From a virus: DNA of 47,707 nt. Both the position numbers and the translations under genes were made by a program. Every line of letters begins with the position of its first letter. Position 1 is the stretch's first letter. Shown here in pieces: positions 5,359 to 38,223 of the stretch. The stretch is taken from positions 1 to 47,707 of IMG/VR virus record IMGVR_UViG_3300046513_000234. One strand, written 5' to 3'. The notes under the pieces were generated by a model. The model was not told where the DNA came from, searched no databases, and saw only the letters and a program-made list of their open reading frames with translations.

Positions 5359-7523
5359 ACTGGGTACTCCATTTCGGTCGGCAGGCCGTCATTCGCTGGA
5401 AGCGAGGCCGCGCGGTTTTTCTTGATCCTCACAACGGGGCCATCCGCAGCGACCGGCGCCGCTGGCTTTGCCTTGAGCTGCAGTTTCGCGCGCTGGTGGC
5501 CGGTAGCCGTTTCGGATGCTTGCTCGGGCGTTGCAGCGTCGGCCTGGCGGAATGGCTCGGCGTCGACGGCATGGTGCGTGGCCTGGTCAACTTGCGCCTG
5601 TGAGTCAACCTGGTTGGGCGCTTTCATCCAGCCGCCCTTGTAGATGTAGCCCTCAGCCAGCGCGGCCGCCTCAAGCTCGCTCAGTCGATGGGGCTGCTCA
5701 TCGAGGAGCGTTTCGGACAGGTCGGAAAGGCGCTCTGGGTGTTCGCTGATGAACTTGCGCAGAGCTTCCGTCGTCGCAATGCAGGCCAGGTCGATCATGT
5801 CATGTTGCGGCAGCTCCAATTGCGCCGGCGCCGCCGGCGCTGCTTTGGGCTTGCTTGCCTTGGGCTTCTTCGACGCCTTGGCTTCCGCGTCGCGCTTGAC
5901 GTCTTTGCGAATCTGCGCGGCGTTCACGTTGAACTGCTCGGCAACGGCAAGCAGGCGAGTGGGCTTGTCGTTGCTGGCGGTATGGGTGTACACGAACAGG
6001 TCCTGCGCCCACACCAGGTCGCGGATAAGGACTGCCGCTTGTTCAACGTCCAGGGCGTCCACCAGTCTCTCAAGCTTCACGGTGCCTGAAATCCATTTCG
6101 AGCCGTCGTGTCCCGCCTGGTACTCGCTGGAGTCCCAGCCGTACACGGTTGCGACGAAGGGCAAGACGTCGGTATGGCATTGCTTGAGCAGTGCCATCGC
6201 AGCGGCGCGCACCTCCGCAGGGGTAAGCTCAGGAGTGGCGGCGGACCGTACAGCCATAAACAAGCGGCGGCGATATTCGCGTTCGATTTTCGCGGCGGCC
6301 GCCTGCTCCTTCTCGCGCTCTTTCTGAGCCAGGTTGCGTGAGCGCTCCGTCTCTGGAATTGGCTTACCGGCGGCAGTGAGTGCGGCCTCGATGTCGTCCA
6401 CCTTGGCAACGGTGAGCATTTCGCCGTTGTGCGGTTGCTCCAGCAGCACCATAGGCGGCAGCTTCTTGCCCAGCAGTTTGCGGTACGTCGTGGTGCCCCC
6501 TTTTTGCAGATATAGCTGCTTGTCGAGATCGATGTAGCCGCCTTTTAAGTCGCCGTACGACTGGGGCATGATCTTGCGAGCCTGCTCACCGGATATCACG
6601 GCAACGCCCTTGCTCTTGGCATCGGCGCGTTCCCGGCCCTGCTGCGCACCTCGCTTGTCCGCAAAGCATGCTGGGTCCGTGCAGACGTCTGCACTTGCGT
6701 CATCGCCCTCGAAATCAGGTTGATTGCCGGCGCGCTTCGGACATTCGATGCAAGAGCCGGCGTCCGTCAGCGTGACGTCCTTGATAGGAAAAGTCGCGGT
6801 CTGCAGGTTGAGCGTGAAATTCCGGCGAATGTGATCGCGCGCTTCACGATATGTCATTGGGCCTTCGTGCCCCCGGTAGCCGTTCGGCTTCGTGATCTCA
6901 CTTACCGCCTGGGCTTGGAGCTTTGGATTCGGGATGCGTGCAATGAGTTGCCCGGTCTCGGCCGTCAGCAGGCCGTCAAAGAAGGCGTCGCGCGCGCTGA
7001 TACACAGCTCGCAAAGCTTCAGGCGGTTGTAGATGTAGGTGCGGCTCTGCTTCACCGTCTCCATGACCTGTTCCACGGTGAAGCCGAAGCCGTGCATGAG
7101 CTGCTGGTAGCCTTCAGCTTCTTCCAGCGGATGCGGGTCCTCGCGCTGGACGTTCTCCAGCAGCTGGATGCGGAGCGCCTGCTCGTCGCTCATGGCAATG
7201 ATGCGCGCGGGTATCGCGAACAGTTCAGCCATCACGGCCGCGCGGAAGCGGCGCTCGCCGGCGACGATCTCGTATGGCTGCGGTTCCGCATCGGTCGCGG
7301 GCATGGGGCGCAGCAGGATTGGCTGCATGATGCCCACTTCGCGCGCCGAGGCCGCCAAGTCATCCAGTGCGCCCATGTCGAAGCGCTTGCGATTCGTCTT
7401 TGATATGCGGATTTGGAACAGCGGCACGTCGCGGTAGCCGTCCGTCACCAGTTCATCAACGACGATGACCTGGTCGGCGGGCATCGGCACCACTGGCGCC
7501 GGCAGTAGAACAAGTTTGCTCAT
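5355..7523 (-). CDS. parB: Large ParB/RepB/Spo0J-family protein
   Basis: This 722-residue protein has a ParB N-domain at about 35-130, with GERRFRA at 89-95 and LLENVQRED at 121-129. A helix-turn-helix at about 147-172 (GFTVEQVMETVKQSRTYIYN) is the usual specific-DNA reader. A cysteine cluster follows (CIECPKR, then DVCTDPACF) that could bind zinc, and a long Ala/Lys/Pro-rich C-terminus. It is about twice the normal ParB size, as in several phage and plasmid ParB proteins. No ParA ATPase gene is seen in the prophage. The gene contains one of six copies of a 16-bp palindrome (6679-6694) that are candidate binding sites. Possible roles are phage genome partition, condensation or transcriptional silencing. 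Confidence 0.88.
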   Translation of the reverse strand: MSKLVLLPAPVVPMPADQVIVVDELVTDGYRDVPLFQIRISKTNRKRFDMGALDDLAASAREVGIMQPILLRPMPATDAEPQPYEIVAGERRFRAAVMAELFAIPARIIAMSDEQALRIQLLENVQREDPHPLEEAEGYQQLMHGFGFTVEQVMETVKQSRTYIYNRLKLCELCISARDAFFDGLLTAETGQLIARIPNPKLQAQAVSEITKPNGYRGHEGPMTYREARDHIRRNFTLNLQTATFPIKDVTLTDAGSCIECPKRAGNQPDFEGDDASADVCTDPACFADKRGAQQGRERADAKSKGVAVISGEQARKIMPQSYGDLKGGYIDLDKQLYLQKGGTTTYRKLLGKKLPPMVLLEQPHNGEMLTVAKVDDIEAALTAAGKPIPETERSRNLAQKEREKEQAAAAKIEREYRRRLFMAVRSAATPELTPAEVRAAAMALLKQCHTDVLPFVATVYGWDSSEYQAGHDGSKWISGTVKLERLVDALDVEQAAVLIRDLVWAQDLFVYTHTASNDKPTRLLAVAEQFNVNAAQIRKDVKRDAEAKASKKPKASKPKAAPAAPAQLELPQHDMIDLACIATTEALRKFISEHPERLSDLSETLLDEQPHRLSELEAAALAEGYIYKGGWMKAPNQVDSQAQVDQATHHAVDAEPFRQADAATPEQASETATGHQRAKLQLKAKPAAPVAADGPVVRIKKNRAASLPANDGLPTEMEYPV
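6679..6694. repeat. 16-bp palindrome copy 1 (candidate parS-like site)
   Basis: GTGCAGACGTCTGCAC, a perfect palindrome inside the parB gene, where it is read as ADVCT. It is identical to copies at 8121, 17182, 23578 and 38208. Confidence 0.75.
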
Positions 7524-7549
7524 GTTGTAGATTTCGATTTTTGGTGGAG

Positions 7550-8089
7550 TTAATCGCGGTCGTTTGCAGCGAACTTTTTGAGGTCCGTGCCGCTTGCCGG
7601 CCGCAGCAGAGGCAAGGGTTTGAAATGGGGTTTGCGGGCCACGCGTTTGATCGCGATGGCGAGCGAGTCGTTCTTCAGCGCGTCATCGAGCGAGCCTTTG
7701 ATGCCGAGCGCGCGATGGGCGAATTGCAGGGCATCGCGGCCTGGCTCGCTTGGCGTCACGGTGATGGAGTAGGGCGCGTCGCCCTGCTTGTCGGCGGCGG
7801 CTGCGTAAGCGGCGTAGCTGGACCCGCAGCGGGCCGTGTGCTGGCTTTCACCGGCGCCGGTGCGCACCCGGACGCTGAACTCTTGGACCAGGTGCAGGTG
7901 CATGGCCAGCGCCATTTTCAGGTCGTGTGCGGTGTCGTGTGGCGTGCCTTCGAAGCCGCTCAATCCGGCAAGCAGCTCAAGGACATTTGCCGCCGCCACA
8001 TGCAGTCTTTCGCCGGAGGCGCTGAGAGCTGCGGACATGTCGACCAGGTTGCCGTCGACAATGGTTGGGGAGGTGCGGGCGCGGCTCAT
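7550..8089 (-). CDS. Phage protein, unrecognised (left operon)
   Basis: 179 residues. The N-terminal half looks helical (NVLELLAGLSGF, HDLKMALAMHLHLVQEF). The C-terminal half, reading ALQFAHRALGIKGSLDDALKNDSLAIAIK, ends in a basic tail. No catalytic motif or membrane segment is visible. The start at 8089 gives an ATGA overlap with the preceding gene's stop, which decides it over an in-frame ATG six bases upstream. It lies 26 bases before parB and shares its operon. Confidence 0.7.
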   Translation of the reverse strand: MSRARTSPTIVDGNLVDMSAALSASGERLHVAAANVLELLAGLSGFEGTPHDTAHDLKMALAMHLHLVQEFSVRVRTGAGESQHTARCGSSYAAYAAAADKQGDAPYSITVTPSEPGRDALQFAHRALGIKGSLDDALKNDSLAIAIKRVARKPHFKPLPLLRPASGTDLKKFAANDRD

Positions 8090-8313
8090 TTGCACGCCTC
8101 ACCGCTGACCAGTTCGACGTGTGCAGACGTCTGCACAGATACGGAGAGTTTCCCCAATCCACGGGCGGCAATATATGCGTGCCCTGTCAGCCCTGCGAAG
8201 GGATCAATTGCATGGGCTCTTGTGCGCACCTTTAATGCGGCTTCAACTGTTGAACTCGTGTCCTGTTCGGCCGAGCCCCCTCGAGTGTCTGTACAGCTTT
8301 CGTAGCGTGTCAT
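8086..8313 (-). CDS. Small first gene of the left operon, unrecognised
   Basis: 75 residues, soluble, no known motif. It is the first gene after the leftward promoter and its operators. A GGGGA stretch lies about 7 bases before the ATG. It contains the second perfect copy of the 16-bp palindrome (8121-8136), read here as VQTSAH. Because the gene is short and its sequence is partly dictated by that site, the protein itself may matter less than the DNA; the ATGA link to the next gene still supports translation. Confidence 0.6.
   Translation of the reverse strand: MTRYESCTDTRGGSAEQDTSSTVEAALKVRTRAHAIDPFAGLTGHAYIAARGLGKLSVSVQTSAHVELVSGEACK
8121..8136. repeat. 16-bp palindrome copy 2 (candidate parS-like site)
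   Basis: GTGCAGACGTCTGCAC, perfect copy within the first left-operon gene, 1442 bases from copy 1. Confidence 0.75.
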
Positions 8314-8348
8314 AGTCCGTCCCCAGTAAGGTTTTACTACTGGCGTGG

Positions 8349-8412
8349 ACTATAGCAAACGATAGTTATTTTGTACAAGCAAATGCTAATGTTTGCTCAA
8401 TCATTTGATAGG
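8349..8412 (-). promoter_or_regulatory. Leftward early promoter with operator array (OL-like)
   Basis: On the minus strand TTGTAC (8378-8373), an 18-base spacer and TATAGT (8354-8349) form a sigma70-type promoter. Three 13-bp operator-like sequences lie over and upstream of it on the plus strand: AGCAAACGATAGT (8354-8366), AGCAAATGCTAAT (8378-8390, whose right flank also carries an inverted AGCAAA half) and ATCATTTGATAGG (8400-8412). The same motif family recurs on the other side of the repressor gene. Repression by the CI-like protein is inferred. Confidence 0.65.
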
Positions 8413-8461
8413 ACTTTTTTGGAATAAAGAAATGGTATTACTGTGAAATTTTCGTATAAAG

Positions 8462-8488
8462 AAAAAGGCCCCGAGAATTCGAGGCCTT
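8462..8488 (-). terminator. Terminator of the repressor gene
   Basis: AAGGCC pairs with GGCCTT, with an inner CGA/TCG stem and a GAAT loop. Read leftward it is followed by TTTTTCTTT. It lies 19 bases after the repressor stop and keeps repressor transcripts out of the left promoter. Confidence 0.75.
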
Positions 8489-8506
8489 GTTTGAGTGCAA
8501 TTCTGA

Positions 8507-9232
8507 TCAGCGCCGTCTTGAGCGTCGGCGGTGTTCGGCCATGACGCCGATGATTTTTAGTGGCGTCGTATCGCTCCGCATTGTTGGATAGTCCTCGTTG
8601 AGAGGCGCAAGCTCAAAGACTTCATTGCCGTGTGAGTCGATGCCGCGCGGGCGGTATTTCTTGAAAGTGGCTTCCTCTCGTCCGTTCTTCGCCGCCACGT
8701 ATTCCCCTGGTCGCGGCTCCCACTCGGGTTCGATGATCACGAGATCGCCGTCTCGAAACTCAGGTGTCATAGAGTCACCCTCGATAACCAAGCCGAACGC
8801 CCATCGGGAGTAGTCATCGTCCGTATATAAAGTCGCGAAACCGTCGCCTACCTCGTATGGTTCCGTAATTTCTCTTAATGCGCCTGCTTGTATAGCCGAA
8901 ATCACTGGTATTGCCCTTTTGCCTAATGCAGCTGGCCGAGCGTTCTCATCGAACGTATCTTGCCTTGTGGAAATGGGCTGCAATTTACCACGAGTTACCG
9001 CGTCGGTGGGGCCTACCGAATCCAGTGAGAGTGGCGCTAGGCCAGCGGCCAACTCAATTGTGCGGGCCGACTTTTCTCCGAAATTCTTGCCATCCCGATA
9101 TTTTTCCGAGAGCACTTGCGATAGGCGTGCTTCGTCTATCCCAGTGTCGCGTGCGAACTGGGCGACGTTCCCTTTCGTGCGGGCATTGATAACGGCTCGC
9201 AGATTCCTGCGCCTGATTGAATTCATGTCCAT
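8507..9232 (-). CDS. CI-like phage repressor, S24/LexA type
   Basis: This lysogeny repressor of 241 residues has an N-terminal HTH (about 20-60: NVAQFARDTGIDEARLSQVL) and a C-terminal S24 self-cleaving domain. The nucleophile Ser154 lies in GDSMTPEF, the Lys general base is at about 191 in ATFKKY, and an Ala-Gly cleavage pair is at about 116 in IQAGAL. RecA-stimulated autocleavage, and so SOS induction, is expected. The start was set at 9232 because the three OR-like operators (9252-9302) would otherwise fall in or before the coding region. There is no Shine-Dalgarno; TTAAAT lies six bases upstream, so the mRNA may be leaderless as for lambda cI. Confidence 0.9.
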   Translation of the reverse strand: MDMNSIRRRNLRAVINARTKGNVAQFARDTGIDEARLSQVLSEKYRDGKNFGEKSARTIELAAGLAPLSLDSVGPTDAVTRGKLQPISTRQDTFDENARPAALGKRAIPVISAIQAGALREITEPYEVGDGFATLYTDDDYSRWAFGLVIEGDSMTPEFRDGDLVIIEPEWEPRPGEYVAAKNGREEATFKKYRPRGIDSHGNEVFELAPLNEDYPTMRSDTTPLKIIGVMAEHRRRSRRR

Positions 9233-9251
9233 TGCGGGATTTAAAACGAAA

Positions 9252-9307
9252 TTTAGCATTTGCGATACTATCGTTTGCTTGACCAAGCTCCTATCAGTTG
9301 CTAAAGT
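9252..9307 (+). promoter_or_regulatory. Rightward early promoter with operator array (OR-like)
   Basis: TTGACC (9279-9284), a 17-base spacer and TAAAGT (9302-9307) form a good sigma70 promoter for the Cro-like gene. Three operator-like 13-mers lie here in reverse orientation: 9252-9264, 9267-9279 (exact match to 8354-8366) and 9290-9302. The transcription start predicted from the -10 box falls on the A of the Cro-like ATG. A poor -35 for the divergent repressor promoter is compatible with activation by bound repressor. Confidence 0.65.
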
Positions 9308-9313
9308 ACGCGG

Positions 9314-9619
9314 ATGAAAAAACTTCTCGACTACCTAAACAGCTTACCGGTGGCCGCTCAGGAAGATTTTGCAAAGCGCTGCCAGACCACCGTTGGCTAT
9401 CTACGTCAGATCGCTTACGGCCACCGCGAATGCCAAGCTCCCTTAGCCATCAATATTGAACGTGAGTCCTCGCGAGCACTCATATGCGAGGAACTGTGTC
9501 CCAAGGGGGTGGACTGGGCATATATCCGCGCTGAACGCCGGCAAGGCGGTAACCGTCGGCAATCGCCGGATCGGCGCGGTACAGAGCAGCATGATCATGA
9601 TCCTCCTGTATCAAGTTAG
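9314..9619 (+). CDS. Cro-like regulator (YdaS-type HTH)
   Basis: 101 residues. The N-terminal 50 form a compact HTH: LDYLNSLPVAAQEDFAKRC, then TTVGYLRQIAYGHREC. This is typical of Cro/YdaS proteins that face CI-like repressors in lambdoid prophages. The C-terminus is charged and probably disordered (RRQGGNRRQSPDRR). No Shine-Dalgarno is present and the -10 box ends 6 bases before the ATG, so a leaderless transcript is likely. It should compete with the CI-like protein for the operator arrays and favour lytic growth. Confidence 0.8.
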   Translation: MKKLLDYLNSLPVAAQEDFAKRCQTTVGYLRQIAYGHRECQAPLAINIERESSRALICEELCPKGVDWAYIRAERRQGGNRRQSPDRRGTEQHDHDPPVSS

Positions 9620-9696
9620 TGCATTTTGGCTTGCACAGTGGTTGGAAGTGTAAGTTGAAAAAACGAATAGCAAAACCATAATTTTTTAGGAGTTGT

Positions 9697-10185
9697 ATGG
9701 ACGTTCGCAAGGCAGTTCTAAAAGTCATCTCCTCTGTGCCGGGAGGCTGGTCCGTCGCGGCAAATTTCCTCGGCATGTCGGAAGTCTCGCTGCGTAACCG
9801 CGCATATGAATTGAAGGGCCAGTCGTTGTCGACGCGCGACGCCCTGACCCTGCAGCAACTGGCGGGCACCACGCAGTTCGCTGAGGCCGTGGCTACTGAA
9901 AGCGGCGGAACCTTCGTCAAGCTGCCAAGCGCTGACCAAGTGGAAAACGATTCGATCCAGGCCATGTTCAACCAGAACTATGCCGAATTGGGCGCCCTGT
10001 TCGCGACCTTCACCGCAGCCATCGTTGACGGCGAGATTGACGACACCGAGCGCGCCCAGTTGCGGGCGCAGGGAGAGCAGTTACACCGCAAGACGGAAAC
10101 GCTGCTTGCGTTGATGTTCAGCGTGTACTGCCGCCATACCAACACCGTCAAGCTGGAACCACGCCGCGAGGTGGCCCATGGCTAA
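9697..10185 (+). CDS. YmfL/CII-like phage regulatory protein
   Basis: 162 residues. The N-terminal HTH region, with GGWSVAANFLGMSEVSLRNR, is followed by LSTRDALTLQQLAGTTQFAEAVA, as in YmfL and CP76-type CII regulators. The C-terminal half is helical and may oligomerise. AGGAG stands 5-6 bases before the ATG. It is the second gene of the rightward operon, the position of lambda cII. It is expected to act in the lysis-lysogeny decision; whether it activates or represses cannot be read from the sequence. Confidence 0.72.
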   Translation: MDVRKAVLKVISSVPGGWSVAANFLGMSEVSLRNRAYELKGQSLSTRDALTLQQLAGTTQFAEAVATESGGTFVKLPSADQVENDSIQAMFNQNYAELGALFATFTAAIVDGEIDDTERAQLRAQGEQLHRKTETLLALMFSVYCRHTNTVKLEPRREVAHG

Positions 10186-10627
10186 CCACGAATTGCCGCG
10201 CCGTGGCAGCGCCGCAGCGACCGGCTTGATCACGCTTCAAGGTATGGGTGGCATGGGCACGGTCTCCGCTTGGCTGCGTGCGAAGGGCTGGCGTGCCTCC
10301 CGCGCCCTGTTCTTTTCGGATGTTGTGGATCGTCTGATGCGCGCACAACTGGTGATCCTGGAGGGAGAGCGCTTCATTATCACCAATGCGGGGTACAAAT
10401 ACCTGGGCGTCAAGGTTGAGGGCGACGCTGAGGCGCCTGCCACTCCCGTTGGCCCACGTTACGCGGCGCCTATGCGTGCACTGAACATCGGCCGCCATAG
10501 TCCCGCGCGCATCATTCGCCCCGGCTCGATGGACTTCCGCGAGATCCCGTCCCGAATTGGTGACGACCTGGTCGCCTACAAAGGCCCGCGCGGATTCTCC
10601 GGCGCCACCGGGAGCGAAGTCGCCTGA
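10178..10627 (+). CDS. Small winged-helix-like phage protein
   Basis: 149 residues. The segment reading TVSAWLRAKGWRASRALFFSDVVDRLMR followed by an EGERFIITNAGYKYL wing looks like a winged-helix DNA-binding fold; the C-terminal 50 residues are Pro/Gly-rich. It overlaps the preceding gene by 8 bases and touches the primase-helicase gene, so it is co-translated. Replication accessory or regulatory function is possible; no family is recognised with certainty. Confidence 0.65.
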   Translation: MANHELPRRGSAAATGLITLQGMGGMGTVSAWLRAKGWRASRALFFSDVVDRLMRAQLVILEGERFIITNAGYKYLGVKVEGDAEAPATPVGPRYAAPMRALNIGRHSPARIIRPGSMDFREIPSRIGDDLVAYKGPRGFSGATGSEVA

Positions 10628-13206: not shown

Positions 13207-13460
13207 CCGCCCACATCGTAGCACCCCCCCCCCACATCGCAAACCCGCATGAATACTAGGGATGTTGGCGGTATTGGCAGTATTGACGGTTTTGTCTCAC
13301 CCACGCGCACGTATAGGGCTGATAGGTGGGATGAAGTAGCAGGGTGGTGGCAAATTTTTATACCAATTCAAATTTAACTATCAACACTATCAATACAGTC
13401 AACAAAGCTAGTAAAAATCAGGCTCTCCGATGTGGGGGGTAGTGTTGACGGTGTTGAGGG
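13194..13460. other. Candidate phage replication origin (9-bp iterons)
   Basis: Nine-base repeats of the form TGTTGACGG occur in four places: one at 13194-13202, three in tandem at 13263-13289, three in tandem on the other strand at 13378-13404 and two at 13443-13460. Between the opposed arrays lies an AT-rich stretch (about 13350-13377) that could melt. Inverted C/G runs with CCACATCG (13211-13238) and CGATGTGG (13428-13435) frame the unit. It follows the primase-helicase gene directly. Function is inferred from structure. Confidence 0.6.
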
Positions 13461-14028: not shown

Positions 14029-14044
14029 CGTCTGGAGGTTTGCC

Positions 14045-14756: not shown

Positions 14757-15269
14757 ATGGCACTGACACAGAAGGAAATCGGGGAACATCTCGACCTGGA
14801 CCAGTCGGCGGTCAGTCGCATGCTCGACCAGCTGGGGATCGACTGGCGCACATCGTCGCTCGACGACATCCGCCTCGTCTATGTGCGCCGGCTGCGCGCG
14901 CAGGCGGCCGGCCATCGCAGCGATGGCGGGGCCGACCTGGTGCACGAACGGGTGCTGTCGGAACGGGTCGACCGGGAGCTGAAGATTTTCAACCTGGCTG
15001 AGAAGAAGGGGGCGCTGATCAACGTGGCCCAGCTCGAGCCGGAGCTGATGCAAATGGTGGGCGCGTTTAAGTCGGAGTTGATCAGCCGCGACGACAAACT
15101 GAGGGCGGCGCTCGAAGCCGCGTACGGCATCAAGGTCGATGTCCAGCTTCTGAATGACCACACCTATGCAGCTCTCTCCCACCTCGCTCGATACGACCCT
15201 GGGCATACGCCAGTTGCTGTCGCGCCTGGCGCTCTCCCTGAGTCCGCCGGAGCAGATCAGCCTCACTGA
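14757..15269 (+). CDS. Terminase small subunit (Nu1-like)
   Basis: 170 residues. The N-terminal winged HTH LTQKEIGEHLDLDQSAVSRMLDQLGI would recognise cos DNA. The middle region (ELKIFNLAEKKGALINVAQLEPEL) resembles Nu1/DUF1441 small subunits, including the dimer helices. TGGAG lies 8 bases before the ATG. Its last 116 bases overlap the large subunit gene in another frame, which suggests translational coupling of the holoenzyme partners. Confidence 0.85.
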   Translation: MALTQKEIGEHLDLDQSAVSRMLDQLGIDWRTSSLDDIRLVYVRRLRAQAAGHRSDGGADLVHERVLSERVDRELKIFNLAEKKGALINVAQLEPELMQMVGAFKSELISRDDKLRAALEAAYGIKVDVQLLNDHTYAALSHLARYDPGHTPVAVAPGALPESAGADQPH

Positions 15270-17304
15270 CTGGTCCCGGCAACACCGGCGCCTGTCGGCC
15301 AAGGCCTCGGCGTTGCCCGGCAAGTACGACCCTGACCTAACGCCCTGGGTCAAGTACATGCACGAAGCGCTCGACGATCCAACTGTGCGCAAGGTGGTGG
15401 CGATCAAGTCGGCGCAGGTCGCGTGGACCGATGGCGTGGTGCTCAATTACATCGGCAAGAAGATCGATGTCGATCCGACGCCGATGATCATCATGTTCTC
15501 CAAGGAGAAGGCGGCCAAGGAGTTCAACGAAGAGAAGCTGTTGCCGATGGTCGAGGTTACGCCGAAGGTGGCGGGCAAGATGCAAACCGGCCGGCGCAAG
15601 GATCAGGACAACCGCTGGGATTACAAGACTTTCCCCGGTGGCTTCCTCAAGCTGGTGGGCTCGAACAGCCCCAGTTCGGTGAAGTCGACGCCGTCACCCA
15701 TCGTCATCGTCGAAGAGCCAGACGACTGTAACGACAACGTGCGCGACCAGGGCGACACAATCACGCTGCTGGAGGAGCGCGTCAAGAGCTACCTGCGCAG
15801 CAAGGTGATCTTCGGCGGCACGCCGACGATCAAGGGCCTGTCGCGCATTGACGCCGCCTACCAAGCGAGTGACCGGCGCGTGTTCATGGTGCCGTGCCAT
15901 GAGTGCGGCGAAGCCCATGTCCTGGCCTGGGAAAACGTGAAGTACGTGGAGGACCCTGAGTTCAATCATGAGGTCTTCGGCCATATCCGGCCTGAGTCTG
16001 CGCGCTATGCCTGCCCGCATTGCTCTTGCTTGTGGACTGACGCGGACAAGAAACGTAACGTCCAGCAGCTGTATCCAGTCGCCACGGCGCCGTTCTACGG
16101 CATCGCCGGCTTCTACATCAACGAACTTTACTCGTCGTTCCCCGGCAGCAGGATGCAGCTGCTGCTGGAAAAGTTCCTGACGGCGCAGCACGCGCTCAAC
16201 CAGGGCGACGACACGAAGATGCGTTCGTTCCGCAATAACAGCGAAGGGCTGGCATACGAGTACAAGAGCGATCTGCCCAAAGCGGACGCGCTCGCCGAGC
16301 GCGCGGAAGACTACGACGAGAAGACGATCCCATGGGGCGGCATGGTCCTGACAGTGGGCGTCGACGTACAGCATGATCGACTGGCAATCGTAGTGCGGGC
16401 CTGGGGTCGGGGGATGGAGTCCTGGCTGGCGTACTGGGGCGAGATCCACGGACAAACCCTGATACCCAATGAGGGAGCGTGGAAGGATTTGGATCTGCTG
16501 CTCGATGGCGAGTTCATTCACGCCAGCGGCAACAGGCTGGTGCCGCGCGCGGTGTCGATCGACTCATCGGACGGCACGACCACGGATGCGGTGTATGCCT
16601 ACGTGCGTAAGCGCCTGGCGCGCGGCTACATGGCGATCAAGGGGGCCTCCGAGCAGGGCGGCGCGTCGAAGGAGATTTTCACGAAGCCGGCCACGTCGGT
16701 GGACATGAGCAAGAAGCACAAGCCGCATCCCTCGGGCGTCACGCCTTACATCGTCGGCACGCAGCGCGCCAAGGATCTGATGATCGAGGGGCGGCTGCGG
16801 CTGACTGGCAGCGGCCCCGGCCGGCTGCACTGGTACAAGTCGGTGCGGCCCGACTATTGGGAGCAGATCACCAGCGAGGTGAAGGCGCCGCACAAGACGG
16901 TGAAGAACCGGAAGGTGTGGCAGAAGCGTGCCGGCGTGCGAAATGAAGCGCTCGACTGTGAAGTGTATGCGCTGCACGCGGCGATCTCGCTGAAGCTGCA
17001 CTTGCTCAAGCCGGCCACCTGGGACTCGATGGAACTGCATTTGCGCCAGAGCGATATCTTCGCGGCAGCGCCATCCGTTCCGGAGCAGGTAGCCGATGCG
17101 ATGGTGGAGCTGGCCTCCGAGGCGGGCAGCAACCTGGTGGAGGTGCTCACGCCGGACCTCATCCGCGAGGCCATCAACCGTGTGCAGACGTCTGCACAAA
17201 CCCCAGCCCCACCGGCGCCCTCACCGGCGCCACCCGCGCCCAAGCCACCGGCAAGGGCAAGAACCCGTAGCCGCGTCGGCGGTTACTCAGCGAAGAATTG
17301 GTAG
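15154..17304 (+). CDS. Terminase large subunit (GpA family)
   Basis: The packaging ATPase and cos nuclease, 716 residues, is of lambda GpA type. The N-terminal LTDWSRQHRRLSAKASALPGKY is the family signature. The ATPase region contains VVAIKSAQVAWTDG, PMIIMFSKEKAAKEF and IVIVEEPDD (Walker B-like). A zinc-binding-like CHECGEAH with CPHCSCLW follows, then the nuclease part with VGVDVQHDRLAI. The C-terminus (about 675-716) is Pro-rich and contains palindrome copy 3, read as VQTSAQ. The start overlaps the small subunit gene; ATG codons at 15154 and 15166 are both possible. Confidence 0.95.
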   Translation: MTTPMQLSPTSLDTTLGIRQLLSRLALSLSPPEQISLTDWSRQHRRLSAKASALPGKYDPDLTPWVKYMHEALDDPTVRKVVAIKSAQVAWTDGVVLNYIGKKIDVDPTPMIIMFSKEKAAKEFNEEKLLPMVEVTPKVAGKMQTGRRKDQDNRWDYKTFPGGFLKLVGSNSPSSVKSTPSPIVIVEEPDDCNDNVRDQGDTITLLEERVKSYLRSKVIFGGTPTIKGLSRIDAAYQASDRRVFMVPCHECGEAHVLAWENVKYVEDPEFNHEVFGHIRPESARYACPHCSCLWTDADKKRNVQQLYPVATAPFYGIAGFYINELYSSFPGSRMQLLLEKFLTAQHALNQGDDTKMRSFRNNSEGLAYEYKSDLPKADALAERAEDYDEKTIPWGGMVLTVGVDVQHDRLAIVVRAWGRGMESWLAYWGEIHGQTLIPNEGAWKDLDLLLDGEFIHASGNRLVPRAVSIDSSDGTTTDAVYAYVRKRLARGYMAIKGASEQGGASKEIFTKPATSVDMSKKHKPHPSGVTPYIVGTQRAKDLMIEGRLRLTGSGPGRLHWYKSVRPDYWEQITSEVKAPHKTVKNRKVWQKRAGVRNEALDCEVYALHAAISLKLHLLKPATWDSMELHLRQSDIFAAAPSVPEQVADAMVELASEAGSNLVEVLTPDLIREAINRVQTSAQTPAPPAPSPAPPAPKPPARARTRSRVGGYSAKNW
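17182..17197. repeat. 16-bp palindrome copy 3 (candidate parS-like site)
   Basis: GTGCAGACGTCTGCAC, perfect copy in the 3' end of the large terminase gene, in a stretch encoding a low-complexity Pro/Ala tail where extra sequence would be tolerated. Confidence 0.75.
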
Positions 17305-22702: not shown

Positions 22703-23455
22703 ATGGCTCGACATTTTGGCTCCGGCGTCCTGTGGGCAACGCCTGTGCAGGACGCCCTGGGCGCCGCATACGCAAGTCCAACCCCCTTCCAGTTTGGCAT
22801 CCTGCAGGACATCGGCATTGATGCCTCGTTCGAGGAGAAGCTGCTGTATGGCTCCAGCTCCTTCGCGGTCGACAGTGGCCGAGGTAAAGGCAAGATCGGC
22901 CTGAAGGCGAAGTTTGCCAACATCAACATTCTGCCGTTCACGGCGGCGTTCTTCGGTCAGTCCGCAGTGAGCGGACTGATCACCTCGGTGAAAGACGACA
23001 TCGGCCAGCTGGCCACCGCGAGCGTCACCATCGCGCCGCCGGCCGGCGCCACCTACTTCGCCAACCTGGGCGTGCGCAGTGATGCCAACGGCACGCCGAT
23101 GATTCGCGTCACCTCGGCGCCGAGCACCGGACAATACACCACGGACGGCAATGGCGCCTATACATTCGCGGCGGCCGATGTCGGGAAAACTATCTTTGTC
23201 GACTATCAGCACCTGACGGCAGCTGCGGGAAAACTGCTGACGGTAACGAACCTGCCGATGGGCCTGACCCCTACCTTCCGCCTCGATATGTCGATGGCGC
23301 GTAACGGCAAGGTGCTGACGCTGACCTGGCCGAAAGTCACCAGCTCCAAGCTGGCGATGTCGACCAAGCAGGAAGATTTCATGATTCCGGAGCTGGATAT
23401 GAGCGCTCTGGCCGACGACAACGGCGTGGTCTGGAAATGGAGCGCATCGGAATGA
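22703..23455 (+). CDS. Major tail tube protein
   Basis: 250 residues. The conserved N-terminal part reads FQFGILQDIGIDASFEEKLLYG, and GKIGLKAKFANINILPFTAAFFG continues it. An internal Gly/Ala-rich beta section follows, and the C-terminus contains GLTPTFRLDMSMARNGK. The size and position before the G/T chaperones identify it as the tube subunit. It ends in an ATGA overlap with gene G. Confidence 0.85.
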   Translation: MARHFGSGVLWATPVQDALGAAYASPTPFQFGILQDIGIDASFEEKLLYGSSSFAVDSGRGKGKIGLKAKFANINILPFTAAFFGQSAVSGLITSVKDDIGQLATASVTIAPPAGATYFANLGVRSDANGTPMIRVTSAPSTGQYTTDGNGAYTFAAADVGKTIFVDYQHLTAAAGKLLTVTNLPMGLTPTFRLDMSMARNGKVLTLTWPKVTSSKLAMSTKQEDFMIPELDMSALADDNGVVWKWSASE

Positions 23456-23952
23456 TTCTCAAATTTCTGAAATGGATGCTGGGCATCTTCGAGCCAGCGG
23501 TGCGTGAGCCAGCCACTCACCGGCCAGCCCCTCCCGAACCAGTCGCGCAGCCAGGCTCTGATCCGGTGGCCGATCCTGTGCAGACGTCTGCACACGATCA
23601 TCGCGCGGTGCCCGGTCAGTCCAATGTGCCGGGTAAGGAGTTCTCGCTCGGCGGCCGTGTCTACATCATTGCGCCGCTGAACGCCGCCGCCGTCAAGCAG
23701 TACCGCGACGAGATCAAGGCGGTGTTCATCGGTGGTCTGCCCGACATCGAGCTGGTGTCGAAGCTGGCATACGCAAGTCTGCGGCGCAACTACCCGACGA
23801 TCACGATTGAGGCCGTCGACGACATCCTCGACTACGAGAACTACTTCGGGGTATGGGAAGCGCTGATGAACCTGTCCGGCCTGGTGGCACAGGCAAAGGA
23901 GCTGACGCGGCGGGTGCAGGAGCAGATGGGGGCGGCGGGCTTGACAGCCTGA
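23452..23952 (+). CDS. Tail assembly chaperone G
   Basis: 166 residues. The start is at 23452, where ATGA overlaps the tube gene stop. The N-terminal 50 residues are Pro-rich and include palindrome copy 4 (VQTSAH). The folded part begins at about 55 (GKEFSLGGRVYIIAPLNAAAVKQ) and ends in a helix (AKELTRRVQEQMGAAG). It is expected to bind the tape measure protein during tail assembly. Near its 3' end a G run allows a -1 shift into the T frame. Confidence 0.8.
   Translation: MILKFLKWMLGIFEPAVREPATHRPAPPEPVAQPGSDPVADPVQTSAHDHRAVPGQSNVPGKEFSLGGRVYIIAPLNAAAVKQYRDEIKAVFIGGLPDIELVSKLAYASLRRNYPTITIEAVDDILDYENYFGVWEALMNLSGLVAQAKELTRRVQEQMGAAGLTA
23578..23593. repeat. 16-bp palindrome copy 4 (candidate parS-like site)
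   Basis: GTGCAGACGTCTGCAC, perfect copy in the disordered N-terminal coding part of chaperone G. Confidence 0.75.
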
Positions 23953-31700: not shown

Positions 31701-32150
31701 TTCATCAATCAGGCCTTCATCGGCGATGCATGGATCAAGGCCGCGCATATCCAGAATGCGGCCGTGGGCACGCTGACCATTGCCGGAAATGCCGTCACCA
31801 CGATGGCGTCGGCGTCCGGTACCGGCGGCGCGTCGATCACGTTCAACGCGTACGGTGCGCCGATCTACCTGGCGGTGACTGGTGTGGGCATTTTTTGGGA
31901 CTCGAATGGGAACGGTTATCACGGGTCGACCGTTGTGACGATCTTCCGCGATGGTGTTGCGATTAACTCGGTGTCGATGGCGGGAGCGAACTTTTCAGGG
32001 GGTGAGATGGCGTTGAGCGCGACATGCGTGTACATCGATTATCCCGGCGCCGGCACGCACACGTACACATTCATAGTTGCGGCTAATCCACAAGAAGGAT
32101 TTTCGAGGGCAGGGCAAATTAACGCAGCACTTTTGGAGACGCGCCGGTGA
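28713..32150 (+). CDS. Tail tip host-specificity protein (J-like)
   Basis: 1145 residues. The N-terminal part (LQTSSYGRPIPWVFGQQRVAP and a Gly-rich loop) and DYTYTVAAAMALGAGPLQSIG match the large central fibre/tip proteins of siphophages. A middle baseplate-like region to about 430 is followed by fibronectin-type modules (about 450-760). A helical section contains repeated RVNADGVLGQRIDTVAAQAG and RVSADGSLGQRIDTAQAKAN units (about 860-930). The final beta part is GQVFINQAFIGDAWIKAAHI, DUF1983-like. It should bind the host receptor with the fibres. Confidence 0.9.
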   Translation: MGGLFKSGGSVSSSAPVISSLQLQTSSYGRPIPWVFGQQRVAPNLIQYEDFKSIPHKSSQRTGKGGSGGGGTTDYTYTVAAAMALGAGPLQSIGRVWKDKEKSSLGELRLDFYNGSNTQTPYPYFLTTHPDRALAYRGIAYVASGAYDLGSSAGMGNHTFEVQAPGSVGSRHGVAVPDAEIADVITAILTDVEQGVGIDPSGLGDMAQFRAYCLANGLWVSPAYTEQRGAFDYIKTLLTIGFADCVYSDGQFKIVPYSDRAASSSLATYTPTIAPVYDLDEDDFLYDQGGDAVKVFQKSTEQSYNHVRVKFPDRANDYNDNIAEAKDDADIELNGLRSMDVVDMREIADAAVAQAAANFLLHRSLYILNTYEFRLPWKYARLEPMDVVTLNYERKFLAGTPVLITEISEEGDDELVIKAEDYPLGSNRAQQPVPDIGNNAPNYAVAPGDVNVPVLFEPPARLTDGASQVWMALSGGANWGGCEVWVSADGTSYQRVGTVRSKAVHGALTAPLAAGGAVDVVHTLSVDIAAAGGTLAPVSQSNADSLVSTCYVDGEYIAYSAAVLKAVGKYDLSYLVRGAYGPAIVDHAAGASFALLDSALFRWTFPSEWVGKTMWFKFVSFNSFGGARQDISAVPAYQRVLHGATVSAVAGLVTSPRPFGIGVSWSLPPGDLDYLRGTELWQSTSADRSTAVLVDSLAAPQSSFVLGGLNAGETRYFWVRLVDRMGNASAFFPAGAGVAGQTSTDAASILSYLGGVIGKTQLAQDLLQPIEDAEEVIGPMVDRVNELLNGKATDELAANQLLAMINGDKALTDTTQKVGTRIETVRAENKSDNAALAQQVDLVGAAVGQNAAAIVSEQIARVNADGVLGQRIDTVAAQAGQAAAAVQSEQTARVSADGSLGQRIDTAQAKANDASAAVQATSQALVDTNGKLSAQYTLKTQVTQGGRRYLAGIGVGVEVNGPVAESQILLSADRLAVVSEANGGIITPFVVQNGQVFINQAFIGDAWIKAAHIQNAAVGTLTIAGNAVTTMASASGTGGASITFNAYGAPIYLAVTGVGIFWDSNGNGYHGSTVVTIFRDGVAINSVSMAGANFSGGEMALSATCVYIDYPGAGTHTYTFIVAANPQEGFSRAGQINAALLETRR

Positions 32151-32548
32151 AGGATTACATCATCTATAACAAAGAGGGGCGTGTCCTGCAGACCGGACAC
32201 ATTCCTGAATCCATGTTCGAGTTGCAGCAGGACGAGGAGCTGGGGCGCTTCGTTCTGGAGGGAAGTGCAGACGTCCGCACACAGTACGTCGTCGACGGCG
32301 CGCTTGTGTCCAGGCCGGTCAATCCGGCGGTGTTCTCCGCGATGGCTGCCGCTGCGGACGGAACAGACGAGGTCGTGATCGCAGGCGTGCCTGCCGGGTC
32401 GAAAGTCGCGGTGACGGGGCCTGTATCGCTGTCAGACATTGCGGACGGGACGGACATTTGCCTGACCTTCGCACGGCCTGGCGCTTACCTGGTGCGCGTC
32501 GAGTCGTTCCCATTCCGAGATCTGGAGGTCACTGTCGATGCGGCTTGA
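32147..32548 (+). CDS. Small tail-associated protein, unrecognised
   Basis: 133 residues, start GTG overlapping the stop of the J-like gene. The sequence has a beta look (YIIYNKEGRVLQTG, VDGALVSRPVNP, KVAVTGPVSLSDI) similar to short proteins that follow tail fibres and aid them. It contains the degenerate palindrome copy 5 (32265-32280). Function is inferred from place only. Confidence 0.65.
   Translation: MKDYIIYNKEGRVLQTGHIPESMFELQQDEELGRFVLEGSADVRTQYVVDGALVSRPVNPAVFSAMAAAADGTDEVVIAGVPAGSKVAVTGPVSLSDIADGTDICLTFARPGAYLVRVESFPFRDLEVTVDAA
32265..32280. repeat. 16-bp palindrome copy 5 (one mismatch)
   Basis: GTGCAGACGTCCGCAC differs from the other copies by one base (T to C in the right arm). 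It is read here as ADVRT, a different frame from the VQTSA copies. Confidence 0.6.
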
Positions 32549-32951: not shown

Positions 32952-32972
32952 TTGCCGCGCACTGACGAATAC

Positions 32973-33004: not shown

Positions 33005-33018
33005 GAGGGATACATCAT

Positions 33019-35277: not shown

Positions 35278-35281
35278 GACC

Positions 35282-35737
35282 ATGTACACCTACAAACTAA
35301 GCAACTACGGCATCGTGCGCTCGGATGGTGCTTGTATCCCGTACGACTCAGCCAACACGGACTACGCTGCCTATCTGGCTTGGCTGGCGGCTGGTAATAC
35401 ACCGGCTCCCATTGAAGCGCCGGACGCCGCGACACTGCAGCGGCAGGGCGCTGTAGCCATTCAGCGGGCGATGGACTCCGTTGCGCAAACCCGTGGCTAC
35501 GATGACATCAAGAGCGCCTGCGCTTATGCCAGCCCAGCTCCGGTTGTTGACGATGGGTCGCCCCTGTTTGAGCGCTGCGAGCGCTTCCGTGCCGAAGGCA
35601 ACGCGCTACAGCAGTGGATGGCCCAGACCTGGGCCAAGGCCTACGACTACCTTGACCTGGTGGCGAAGGGCGAGGCGCCAATGCCAACCCCGGATGAGGC
35701 GGTGGCCATGATGCCGACCTTCAGCTGGCCGGACTAA
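35282..35737 (+). CDS. Tail fibre assembly-like protein
   Basis: 151 residues. The start region reads YGIVRSDGACIPYDSANTDY and the body DAATLQRQGAVAIQRAMDSV with YDDIKSACAYASP, like small proteins found directly behind tail fibre genes (DUF4376-like). It probably aids folding or attachment of the fibre. It is followed by a terminator. Confidence 0.65.
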   Translation: MYTYKLSNYGIVRSDGACIPYDSANTDYAAYLAWLAAGNTPAPIEAPDAATLQRQGAVAIQRAMDSVAQTRGYDDIKSACAYASPAPVVDDGSPLFERCERFRAEGNALQQWMAQTWAKAYDYLDLVAKGEAPMPTPDEAVAMMPTFSWPD

Positions 35738-35766
35738 TCGACAGTAAAGCTTTACCAACCACCACT

Positions 35767-35790
35767 ACCCGCCGCGTGCGGGTTTTTTTT
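35767..35790 (+). terminator. Terminator before the lysis genes
   Basis: ACCCGC pairs with GCGGGT around a 5-nt loop, followed by eight T. The lysis gene start codon lies immediately behind the T tract. Confidence 0.75.
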
Positions 35791-36237
35791 ATGACGAAAG
35801 TACCTATGCCAATCGAAACCACTGCCGCCGCCGGCGGCGCCCTGCTCAAATACTTCGGGGTGCCGGTCGCAGCCGGCGCTATCGCCACGTCGCTGGCCTT
35901 CATGTTCATGTGGCCCAAGACGGTCAAGGAGGCGTTCGTGCGCTTCCTGTGCACCATCCTGTCTTCCAGCATTCTCGGCCCGGTGCTCGTCGTCATGGTG
36001 CGCAGCTGGTGGCCCTCGCTGTTCGACGCCGCGCGCGACGTAGCCGTCATGTACGGCAGCGACCCGGCGCTCGGCTTCCTGTTCATCGCCGGCCCGCTGA
36101 TGGTCGTCGCCGGCCTGCCCGCCTGGTGGATCATCGGCGCCGCTGTCCGCTGGTTCGACAAGCGCAAGGACAAGGACATCGGCGAGCTGATGCAAGACGC
36201 GGCTGAGGCCGTCAAGGACGCGCGAGGCGCGCTGTGA
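35791..36237 (+). CDS. Holin-like membrane protein
   Basis: 148 residues with three likely membrane segments (about 13-37, 47-68, 88-112) and a charged C-terminus (RWFDKRKDKDIGELMQDAAE). This fits a class of phage holins. The start may be ATG 35791 or ATG 35806; neither has a strong Shine-Dalgarno and the upstream T tract belongs to a terminator. It stands directly before the endolysin with a GTGA overlap. Because the endolysin has a SAR anchor, the holin may act as a pinholin. Confidence 0.75.
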   Translation: MTKVPMPIETTAAAGGALLKYFGVPVAAGAIATSLAFMFMWPKTVKEAFVRFLCTILSSSILGPVLVVMVRSWWPSLFDAARDVAVMYGSDPALGFLFIAGPLMVVAGLPAWWIIGAAVRWFDKRKDKDIGELMQDAAEAVKDARGAL

Positions 36238-36761
36238 GGAACCCACTTAACCGAACTGGCCTGACGCTGGTCAGCGCCGCTTTGGTGGCGGTGCTGTCGC
36301 AGTTGGAGGGCACGCGTTATGTGCCCTATGAGGACATTGTCAATGTCTGGACCGTTTGTCAGGGTTACGCCGGCAAGGATGTGATCCGCAACAAGGTCTA
36401 CACGCCAGCCGAGTGCAAGGCATTGACCGAGTCGCAGCTGGCGGCGAAGGGCGCAGGGGTCTTGCGCTGCGCGACCGTGGCGTTGACGCAGAACGAATAC
36501 GACGCGTACACGCTGTTTTCGTACAACGTGGGAACGGCAGCCTTTTGCGGATCGTCGCTGCTAAAGAAGCTGAACCAGGGCGACCACGTTGGCGCCTGCA
36601 ATGGTCTGCTGGCCTGGGACCATGCGGGTGGCAAGCAGGTTCCCGGCCTGCACAAGCGGCGCGAGTTCGAGCGCCGGATCTGCCTGGGCGAGTTGCCGCT
36701 GGCCAGCGCCGGCGGGGTGATCACCTACACATGGAGAAGCGCCAATGATCTGCAAGCTTGA
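36234..36761 (+). CDS. SAR endolysin, GH24 lysozyme
   Basis: 175 residues. It starts GTG in the holin stop overlap. Residues 8-23 (TGLTLVSAALVAVLSQ) form a weakly hydrophobic signal-anchor-release segment. The catalytic triad Glu25, Asp34, Thr40 has the E-8aa-D-5aa-T spacing of phage 21-type lysozymes. The motif after Thr is VCQGYAG instead of the common GYGHT. Cys42 next to the triad, with further cysteines, could form disulfides that hold the enzyme inactive until release. It cleaves peptidoglycan in the periplasm. Confidence 0.88.
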   Translation: MRNPLNRTGLTLVSAALVAVLSQLEGTRYVPYEDIVNVWTVCQGYAGKDVIRNKVYTPAECKALTESQLAAKGAGVLRCATVALTQNEYDAYTLFSYNVGTAAFCGSSLLKKLNQGDHVGACNGLLAWDHAGGKQVPGLHKRREFERRICLGELPLASAGGVITYTWRSANDLQA

Positions 36762-37272
36762 GGGCATATTGCTGCCCACCTGGGCGCGCTGGCTGGTGTA
36801 CTCGCTGATGGCCGCGGTGCTGCTGTGCCTGGGTGAAATGGACGGTGAGCGCCGGGCTGGCCAGCGTCACATCGAGTATGTCACCGCGCAAGCGGCGCGA
36901 ACGGTTGCCATCGGCCAGGCGCAAACAAAGGTCGTGATCCAAACGGAAATCAAATACCGCGACCGCATCCAGAAAATTTATCTGAAGGGAGAAGAAATTG
37001 AAAAACAAGTACCGGTCTATGTCACGGCCGCTGACAGTGCTGTGTATGGCGTTAATGCTGGCTTCGTGCGCGCATACAACGCCGCCTGGTCAGGTGACGA
37101 TCCCGGATCTGCCGCCGACACTGACCGAGAACCCGCCGGCATTCCGCTTGCTGATATCGCCGAAGCCGACGCGCACAACGCCACCAGTTGCCGCGCCTGG
37201 CGTGAGCAAGCCATCGGCCTGAGGGAGTTTTACGGCAACTTGAAAGCGGCAACCGATCACGCGGAGCCGTAG
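36745..37272 (+). CDS. Rz: i-spanin, Rz-like
   Basis: 175 residues. An N-terminal membrane anchor (about 13-32: ARWLVYSLMAAVLLCLG) is followed by a periplasmic helical region with QAQTKVVIQTEIKYRDRIQ and a long C-terminal part. It overlaps the endolysin by 17 bases and contains the Rz1 gene in another frame. Together they fuse inner and outer membranes in the last step of lysis. Confidence 0.82.
   Translation: MICKLEGILLPTWARWLVYSLMAAVLLCLGEMDGERRAGQRHIEYVTAQAARTVAIGQAQTKVVIQTEIKYRDRIQKIYLKGEEIEKQVPVYVTAADSAVYGVNAGFVRAYNAAWSGDDPGSAADTDREPAGIPLADIAEADAHNATSCRAWREQAIGLREFYGNLKAATDHAEP
36998..37222 (+). CDS. Rz1: o-spanin lipoprotein, Rz1-like (embedded)
   Basis: 74 residues fully inside Rz in another reading frame. 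The lipoprotein signal has lipobox LASC with Cys24 as lipid site, then a short Pro/Thr-rich mature part (PPGQVTIPDLPPTLTENPP), typical of Rz1. The start is TTG with AAGGGAG about 7 bases upstream; an ATG at 37019 would also keep the signal peptide. Confidence 0.82.
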   Translation: MKNKYRSMSRPLTVLCMALMLASCAHTTPPGQVTIPDLPPTLTENPPAFRLLISPKPTRTTPPVAAPGVSKPSA

Positions 37273-37288
37273 CGGTAAAAGACAGAGC

Positions 37289-37322
37289 GCCCGCCCGGGT
37301 TGCGCAAACAACCTGGGCGGGC
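37289..37322. terminator. Long GC-rich hairpin behind the spanin genes
   Basis: A 13-bp stem (GCCCGCCCGGGTT with AACCTGGGCGGGC, one G-T pair) has an 8-nt loop but no T tract. It is either a weak terminator or an mRNA-stabilising structure at the end of the lysis unit. Confidence 0.5.
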
Positions 37323-37399
37323 CTCAATTCACTGTATAGGCCAGTAAACCAAGCAAGGCTCTGCCACCTTCCGGAAGGCGGCGAGAGTCTAGCATAAAT

Positions 37400-37411
37400 G
37401 TAAACGTTTAC
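37400..37411. promoter_or_regulatory. Palindromic operator candidate GTAAACGTTTAC
   Basis: A perfect 12-bp palindrome ends two bases before the methylase ATG, where the ribosome site should be. It may bind a repressor or hinder translation. No other copy was seen in the window. Confidence 0.45.
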
Positions 37412-37413
37412 CT

Positions 37414-38202
37414 ATGGCAATGCCTATTATTCCTTGGATCGGCGGCAAGCGACGCCTGGCCGACCGCATCATTCCTCAATTCCCCTCGCACACCTGCTAT
37501 GTCGAAGTGTTCGCCGGAGGAGCCGCGTTGTACTTCATGCGGCCGCCGGCCGAGGTGGAGGTCCTGAACGATATCAACGGCGAGCTGATCAATCTGTACC
37601 GGGTCGTCAAGAACCACCTGGAGGAGTTTGTCCGCCAGTTCAAGTACGCGCTGTCCAGCCGCGATGTGTTCAAGTGGTTGCAGGACACGCCGCCGCACAC
37701 GCTGACCGATATCCAGCGCGCGGCGCGCTTCTTCTATTTGCAGCAGCATGCATTCGGCGGCAAGGTCGATGGCCAGACGTGGGGAACTGCGACGACGGCG
37801 CCGCCAATCAACCTGCTGCGCATCGAGGAGAACCTGTCAGCGGCCCACTTGCGGCTGTCTAGCGCCTACATCGAGAACCTGGACTGGTACAAGTGCATGG
37901 AGCGCTACGACAGGCCCCATACTCTGTTTTATCTGGACCCGCCTTATTGGGAGACTGCCGGCTACGGCGTGGACTTCCCGCTCACTGAGTACGAGCGCAT
38001 GGCAGACCTCATGTCTCGACTCAAAGGGAAGGCCATTCTGAGCCTGAACGATCACCCAGATATCCGCCGCGTCTTCGCCCGCTTCCAGATGGATGCAACC
38101 GGCATCAACTATACGGTTGGCGGCGGTGGTAGGGCGGTGGAGCGCCAAGAGCTGATCATTTACAGCTGGGACAAAGAGGCCGAACCTGCTGGCCTCTTTT
38201 GA
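37414..38202 (+). CDS. DNA adenine methylase, D12 class (right copy)
   Basis: 262 residues, an N6-adenine methyltransferase. The AdoMet motif WIGGKRRLAD is at 8-17, VEVFAGGAALYF at 30-41, and catalytic DPPY at 175-178. It lacks the long region of the left-end methylase and is clearly a different subgroup. It is preceded by a palindrome instead of a Shine-Dalgarno. It is a late-end moron gene that may protect phage DNA from host restriction; the target site cannot be deduced. Confidence 0.9.
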   Translation: MAMPIIPWIGGKRRLADRIIPQFPSHTCYVEVFAGGAALYFMRPPAEVEVLNDINGELINLYRVVKNHLEEFVRQFKYALSSRDVFKWLQDTPPHTLTDIQRAARFFYLQQHAFGGKVDGQTWGTATTAPPINLLRIEENLSAAHLRLSSAYIENLDWYKCMERYDRPHTLFYLDPPYWETAGYGVDFPLTEYERMADLMSRLKGKAILSLNDHPDIRRVFARFQMDATGINYTVGGGGRAVERQELIIYSWDKEAEPAGLF

Positions 38203-38207
38203 TTGGG

Positions 38208-38223
38208 GTGCAGACGTCTGCAC
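38208..38223. repeat. 16-bp palindrome copy 6 (candidate parS-like site)
   Basis: GTGCAGACGTCTGCAC, perfect and the only copy outside a coding region: 5 bases behind the methylase stop, 190 bases from attR. Its non-coding position supports a DNA-level role. Confidence 0.78.

Follow-up and report, generated by a model that had tools for sequence, protein, structure and literature searches.

What does a temperate phage do with a ParB protein when no ParA is found beside it? The question is raised by the IMG/VR virus record IMGVR_UViG_3300046513_000234, considered here over positions 1 to 47,707 (the window, meaning the whole of this stretch). Its prophage encodes a 722-residue ParB and carries six dispersed copies of a 16-bp palindrome, GTGCAGACGTCTGCAC (the 16-mer). 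The original prediction, made from the letters alone, took these copies for candidate parS sites of a ParB-only system. A functional link between the 16-mer and this ParB is very probable. With somewhat better than even confidence, the six palindromes serve the orphan ParB of this phage as parS-like sites for loading; the protein would be a clamp dependent on cytidine triphosphate (CTP) and active in lytic growth. This reading draws together four points: sites and ParB co-occur, the DNA itself is under selection, ParA was not found, and the ParB has a CTPase and helix-turn-helix (HTH) fold. Co-occurrence and codon constraint thus support the parS proposal, with binding as its putative part.

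Over the whole window, the same positions as first reported were recovered: five exact copies, one copy with a single mismatch, and no other match at up to three mismatches in 47,707 bases. Shuffled sequences (n = 100) gave a mean of 0.44 matches and a maximum of 3; six were reached in none of the 100. The sites, and the repeats that bound them, are as follows.

6679-6694: 16-mer, exact; within the ParB gene, coding for part of SADVCT (frame ADVCT)
8121-8136: 16-mer, exact; leader region of the ParB operon (leftward), 598 bp before the ParB start
17182-17197: 16-mer, exact; at the 3' end of terL (15154-17304), frame VQTSA
23578-23593: 16-mer, exact; in open reading frame (ORF) 23437-23952 (phrog_7947, function not annotated), frame VQTSA
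32265-32280: 16-mer, one mismatch; in ORF 32147-32548, frame ADVRT
38208-38223: 16-mer, exact; 6 bp past the methylase stop (38202) and 190 bp ahead of the right attachment (att) repeat
86-128: left att repeat, at the 3' end of a tRNA-Ser gene (37-127)
38414-38456: right att repeat, a 43-bp copy of the tRNA-Ser 3' end

All six copies fall between the two 43-bp repeats (86-128 and 38414-38456) and are confined to the prophage, as had been claimed. One lies within the ParB gene and another just upstream of it, and the ORF coordinates uphold the statement that coding copies are read in different frames (VQTSA twice, ADVRT and ADVCT once each). A single intergenic copy had been counted; two look intergenic, namely 8121 (between ORF 7550-8095 and the CI gene) and 38208, and longer, mechanically called ORFs cross both.

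The 16-mer is also found in other phages. Kinship among them inflates every count and p value given in this report. At least 119 IMG/VR stretches contain it, compared with 2 that contain a control palindrome of matched half-site composition and centre. From 80 listed rows, representing 73 distinct contigs, 50 contigs (mostly the longer ones) were examined and 39 further loci were left out; 44 of the 50 carry two or more copies at up to one mismatch, with a maximum of seven, and the reversed control is absent from all 50. Twenty of these contigs, together with the phages VarioGold and Aval, have 3 to 9 copies each at up to three mismatches, against an expectation of 0 to 0.6 that counts CG-centred matches only (two of the 20 contigs are cut by fewer than 400 bases). 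VarioGold, a phage of Variovorax, has six copies; Acidovorax phage Aval has no exact copy and six copies at 1 to 3 mismatches. The variant GTGCACACGTGTGCAC stands at positions 7662 and 20625 of Aval (L126), with near copies at 13369 and 38568, which suggests drift of the putative target at position 6.

Co-occurrence of site and ParB, proposed as a check on the original prediction, held in three differently made and partly overlapping selections. Among the 50 site-bearing contigs, 41 encode a ParB relative (expect value, E, from 5e-28 to 2e-164), and PF02195 is missing from the remaining nine. Inspection of eight of these nine suggests that five (G026, G029, G048, G049 and G050) are cut ahead of the ParB position; the gene situation in G006 and G040 is ambiguous, and G034 is considered below. 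In the reverse direction, 66 of 50,697 records of the phage collection match the window ParB at E up to 1e-5, and among 80 loci selected by ParB, 61 contain a site at up to two mismatches within the fetched flanks. Another of the three selections is made by the primase and comprises the 42 of 79 loci whose contigs reach 20 kb or more. Here, sites are present in all 23 phages with ParB versus 9 of 19 without it (Fisher p 6e-5), or, after removal of 11 records that had also been in earlier sets, in 13/13 versus 8/18 (p 0.001). Two or more sites are found in 20 of the 23 ParB-carrying phages versus 6 of the 19 that lack ParB. G889, G901 and G906 start in or near the primase, and the ParB position is not covered in them.

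Bacterial genomes, the remaining one of the three selections, give the same picture. Burkholderiales is the presumed host order of the window phage, because VarioGold and Aval have their hosts there and the closest ParB is on a contig of Burkholderiaceae. A search of the host genome had also been named at the outset as a check; in bacterial genomes of the presumed order the 16-mer is rare. The exact 16-mer is present in 0 of 398 genomes from the family of a Burkholderia genome and in 7 of 399 from its order (two samples with a slight overlap). Two of the seven have all their three copies close together on one contig, over 17 and 33 kb respectively and beside the ParB gene. A phage-type ParB (E < 1e-60) is encoded in five of the seven versus none of 42 site-less genomes taken from 392 (p 1e-5); the best match among these 42, at 4.7e-30, is presumably a chromosomal ParB. 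In G579, one of the five, site and phage-type ParB are on separate contigs, and G508 and G653 have lone copies of the 16-mer without a phage-type ParB. A scan of genome contigs for this ParB gave mainly generic ParBs, and a scan with a single protein had no match.

Selection can be located at the DNA level. Across 92 sites in 21 phages (up to one mismatch), conservation ends at the edges of the 16-mer, with a weak A/T preference adjoining. The longest ORF over the site uses frames 0, 1 and 2 in 26, 32 and 23 cases and is shorter than 100 amino acids in the other 11; leaving out the copies in ParB genes, the frames are 26, 18 and 23. These ORFs are mechanical and not all of them are genes. The ParB-gene copy overlaps a conserved SADVCTD stretch, in which Ala278 is encoded by GCA in 44 of 52 sequences. 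GCA makes up 17% of the alanine codons in these genes and is the commonest codon in none of 28 other conserved alanine columns. Likewise, Ser277 is encoded by AGT in 40 of 46 (6% of serine codons). Past the right edge, synonymous choice first becomes possible at the third base of Thr282, and this base is free (entropy 1.95). The codon column to the left of the site is too gapped for scoring, and no p value is claimed for these related sequences. The codon constraint at the ParB-gene site means that DNA, and not only protein, is conserved. The claim of selection on DNA therefore stands, by the use of all three frames and by a synonymous constraint that, compared with the flanks as had been suggested, stops at the right-hand edge of the site.

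The candidate reader of the site has the domains that the original prediction had assigned to it, and its lack of a visible ParA extends to related phages.

5355-7523, minus strand: orphan ParB, 722 amino acids; ParB_N and HTH_ParB domains, GERRFR motif, four-cysteine motif, long C-terminal part

ParB_N (5.2e-21) is followed by HTH_ParB (1.1e-13). Both CTP-binding motifs, GERR-x-R and EN-x-QR, are present in the window ParB; of 81 relatives, 64 have the strict pattern of the first and 78 that of the second. By sequence, Spo0J/ParB and Noc are the nearest chains with a solved structure. A structure model (mean predicted local distance difference test score 82.8, predicted template-modelling score 0.57, residues 638-712 disordered) matches ParB, Noc and KorB by fold in its N-terminal part; the fold search gave no match for the long C-terminal part. 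ParA (PF13614) is found in 0 of the 50 site-bearing contigs, the control being found in 14 of 14 known genomes. The canonical ParA-binding motif, (L/F/I)G(K/R)G(L/F/I), is absent from the first 120 residues of all 81 ParBs and of the window ParB; its definition is taken from the accessible text of PMC12704722, where the motif of P1 ParB is described as divergent. Within the HTH domain, the recognition helix is nearly fixed among non-redundant site carriers, with Tyr or Phe at position 165 in 33/33 and Arg167 in 30/33. Covariation between helix and site was also considered and is suggestive only, since the strong columns, 278-280, are the site itself, and site-less ParBs with the same helix exist (see below). 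Directly after the HTH domain stands the four-cysteine motif (cysteines 258, 261, 281 and 286, without exception in alignments of 32 and of 43 sequences). It is possibly a zinc ribbon, and the palindrome supplies part of its coding sequence.

When the ParB is made can be approached through the predicted control elements around CI.

8349-8377, minus strand: predicted left promoter of the ParB operon; 9 of 12 consensus, TG ahead of the second hexamer
8353-8364 and 8377-8388: two CI-operator-like repeats of TAGCAAANGCTA type, over the left promoter
8465-8488, minus strand: predicted terminator, setting the ParB operon apart from CI
8507-9286, minus strand: CI-like repressor with S24 peptidase domain
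9254-9303: CI-operator-like repeats, three of them, over the right promoter predicted at 9279-9307
9314-9619, plus strand: small regulator at the place of Cro (phrog_35, with the annotation transcriptional repressor)
9697-10185, plus strand: CII-like activator

VarioGold has CI-operator-like repeats at both equivalent places. Counted over whole sequences, operator-like matches are barely above chance (10 versus 6.5 in the window, 7 versus 3.3 in VarioGold); the argument holds because the repeats cluster at both promoters, not because of their total number. Promoter-like matches around CI in the window number 3 versus 0.8 expected. ParB is on the CI strand in all 16 phages, of 23, in which CI was found. 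A strict scan of 16 phages finds a terminator behind CI in 3 of them; the window, with a G-T pair in its stem, is not among the three. ParB is thus most likely repressed by CI and expressed early in lytic growth, as far as such predicted elements can tell. The original prediction had offered silencing and maintenance of an extrachromosomal phase among the possible roles. Silencing in the lysogen is disfavoured by the position of ParB, after a predicted terminator and under a promoter that CI is predicted to repress; the extrachromosomal phase is disfavoured too, the phage being integrated at a tRNA gene.

From these elements a mechanism can be proposed. The ParB operon would be repressed in the lysogen and turned on early in induction or infection, as the predicted CI operators of two phages suggest. 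The HTH domain of ParB would bind the 16-mer, and the protein would then close into a CTP-dependent clamp and slide off the site. With a handful of spread-out sites, ParB could reach much of the phage genome, where the clamp may act on lytic DNA, either to keep replicating phage genomes in order or to remove host proteins from them ahead of late expression and packaging. Putative binding of the 16-mer, with CTP-dependent spreading, rests on association. More tentatively, and with rather less than even confidence, the whole may be a ParB-parS system without ParA that serves some end other than partition: clamps loaded early in lytic growth from spread-out sites would coat the entire phage genome and dislodge silencers or nucleases of the host, or else keep replicating DNA in order, and this arrangement would be conserved in many integrating phages of Burkholderiales and relatives.

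How the sites are spaced bears on the strongest alternative, that ParB is a KorB-like regulator, which loads at dispersed operators and slides to nearby promoters to time phage transcription, including that of its own operon. When gaps are ranked against random placement (0.5 if random), 23 phages average 0.30 for gap variation and 0.32 for the largest gap, with single phages from 0.01 to 0.94; the sites tend to be more evenly spread than random. KorB, according to the abstract of PMC11790492, is one of the CTPase clamps of the ParB family; it moves along DNA by sliding and represses promoters at distances of up to 1.5 kb. KorB is also a fold match to the phage ParB, and a site lies within 1.5 kb upstream of ParB in 27 of 61 site-bearing loci; in the window, one lies in the ParB operon leader. 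A site lies inside the ParB gene in 50 of these 61. However, 81 of 92 sites are under a mechanically called ORF of at least 100 amino acids and are spread along the genome. No grouping of sites at promoters was seen, a weak test with promoters mapped only around CI in the window, and no locking partner was found. Given spread-out sites and a sliding clamp as in KorB, wide coverage of the genome fits better than control of particular promoters, and the regulator reading appears unlikely, though it is the most serious of the rivals.

Several observations weigh against parS-like loading sites for an early lytic ParB. On the side of the sites, G034 keeps them and has a NACHT-like ORF of 1011 amino acids in place of ParB, between CI and integrase; G899, G902 and G903 contain the region and the sites and lack ParB, and therefore sites can outlive ParB in mosaic phages. 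On the side of the protein, 19 of 80 ParB-selected loci have no site at up to two mismatches within the fetched flanks, and when the whole record was searched, 17 of 18 site-less ParB loci had none at up to one mismatch. This latter search covered 50 of the 80 loci, picked to hold nearly all site-less ones, so that its 32/50 is not a frequency; the 61 of 80 given above is one, within the flanks. Several site-less ParBs have the same recognition helix, and a search made in three ways found no other convincing dispersed palindrome in ParB phages that lack the 16-mer. The search for exact palindromes gave the 16-mer as the sole palindrome common to its six positives; a looser ranking was weak, placing it first in two of four positives, second in one and outside the top four in one. 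On the side of expression, terminator-like matches around CI are not above chance (3 versus 1.9), a generic CI-operator test over 16 phages gave nothing usable (in part because the window repressor start was misplaced), and the operator and promoter argument consists of predicted elements in two phages, the window phage and VarioGold.

Some further features of these exceptions may be recorded. The NACHT-like ORF of G034, at L432:11586-14621 on the minus strand, had its domain judged by eye; the slot between CI and integrase may swap with defence genes. A switch of specificity to another palindrome was considered for the ParB phages without the 16-mer and dropped; in G096, GCAATACCGGTATTGC stayed at three copies (up to two mismatches). 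The site-less ParB records G076, G093, G086 and G082 have in common the non-palindromic repeats CGCCGTCCGCAG, in 3-4 copies, within about 2 kb in the first three and over 6 kb in G082. These are possibly a clustered centromere or iterons.

The same exceptions lend some weight to the idea that another protein, whether a repressor, a packaging protein or a host factor, reads the 16-mer, with ParB a mere genetic neighbour; sites are kept in some ParB-less phages and are missing beside some ParB relatives whose helix is unchanged. As for CI, its predicted operator-like repeats differ in sequence from the 16-mer, and no 16-mer lies at the CI-Cro promoter. Sites are also fewer in ParB-less phages, some of which (G026, G889, G901 and G906) look cut ahead of the ParB position, and a 16-bp palindrome centred on ACGT resembles chromosomal parS. 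This alternative is improbable.

Slightly less probable still is a partition system of the N15 type, with ParB serving an extrachromosomal phase together with a host ParA. The protein family and the dispersed sites would suit it; on the other hand, ParA was found in none of the 50 contigs, and the ParA-binding motif in none of the 81 ParBs. The phage is, moreover, not of a non-integrating kind, having both att repeats at a tRNA gene and an integrase of its own.

3747-4904, minus strand: prophage integrase

In outline the phage looks lambda-like and temperate. The minus strand encodes integrase, ParB and CI, the plus strand the Cro-position regulator, CII and a primase with DUF5906; then follow terminase, portal, capsid, tape measure, tail, endolysin and methylase. 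Chance or shared descent of a repeated sequence hardly merits consideration, for although the phages are related, 0.44 matches are expected in the window, the control palindrome occurs in 2 stretches, and exact 16-mers persist, in all three frames, beside ParBs that are 28-46% identical to that of the window.

Two other features of the window deserve mention. Two phrog_56-type DNA methyltransferase genes (1796-2653 and 37414-38202) stand near opposite ends of the prophage. The segment 38524-46651 has a second integrase right after the right att repeat and, further on, a gene pair for an AAA ATPase and a subtilase; it is possibly a defence-type island beside the prophage.

What is new here can be judged against the literature and the known ParB systems. 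The 16-mer itself was found in none of the papers searched, and such sites are not reported by title or abstract among the papers listed (most subscription papers were outside the search); words beginning with repeat or palindrom number zero in the main text of the VarioGold paper. ParBs without a ParA-binding motif on prophages and plasmids are a reported class, according to the accessible part of a PNAS 2025 survey (PMC12704722); in that part, no cognate sites or role are named for orphan prophage ParBs. Together with PMC9658991, PMC6536676 and PMC4490671, it annotates or surveys ParB-like phage proteins, the accessible parts of these papers describing no such sites. One orphan prophage ParB family thus gains a candidate DNA target, which is phage-wide and rare in the sampled bacterial genomes. 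Its gene is suggested to belong to the lytic programme, and a ParB function outside partition becomes directly testable.

Chromosomal parS is a 16-bp palindrome with a central ACGT, as is the phage 16-mer. Chromosomal ParB (Spo0J) of the ParABS systems shares ParB_N, HTH and the GERR motif with the phage protein; unlike ParABS, the phage system has neither ParA nor a ParA-binding motif, its sites extend over the whole element, and their outer bases are different. SopB of the plasmid prophage N15 is ParB-like and has several dispersed sites in a temperate phage. N15, however, is a linear plasmid with SopA, whereas the window phage has an integrase and att repeats, and ParA was not found. Noc has many dispersed sites, and is chromosomal and linked to division control. 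It is a ParB paralogue without a ParA-binding motif, as far as the accessible text of PMC12704722 goes, and a fold match to the phage ParB; in contrast to Noc sites, the phage 16-mers lie in prophages. VirB of Shigella is, in the accessible descriptions, a ParB-like, CTP-dependent switch acting on gene expression, but it acts at particular promoters against H-NS, whereas the phage sites are spread over the genome with no known target promoter. KorB of plasmid RK2 has several operators on one replicon. It is a plasmid regulator with KorA as partner; the phage ParB, by comparison, belongs to an integrating phage, would read a different 16-mer, and has 722 residues, a cysteine motif, a long tail and no known partner. 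The likeness lies in the fold, and in the sliding CTPase clamp that the abstract of PMC11790492 describes for KorB and that is proposed here for the phage protein.

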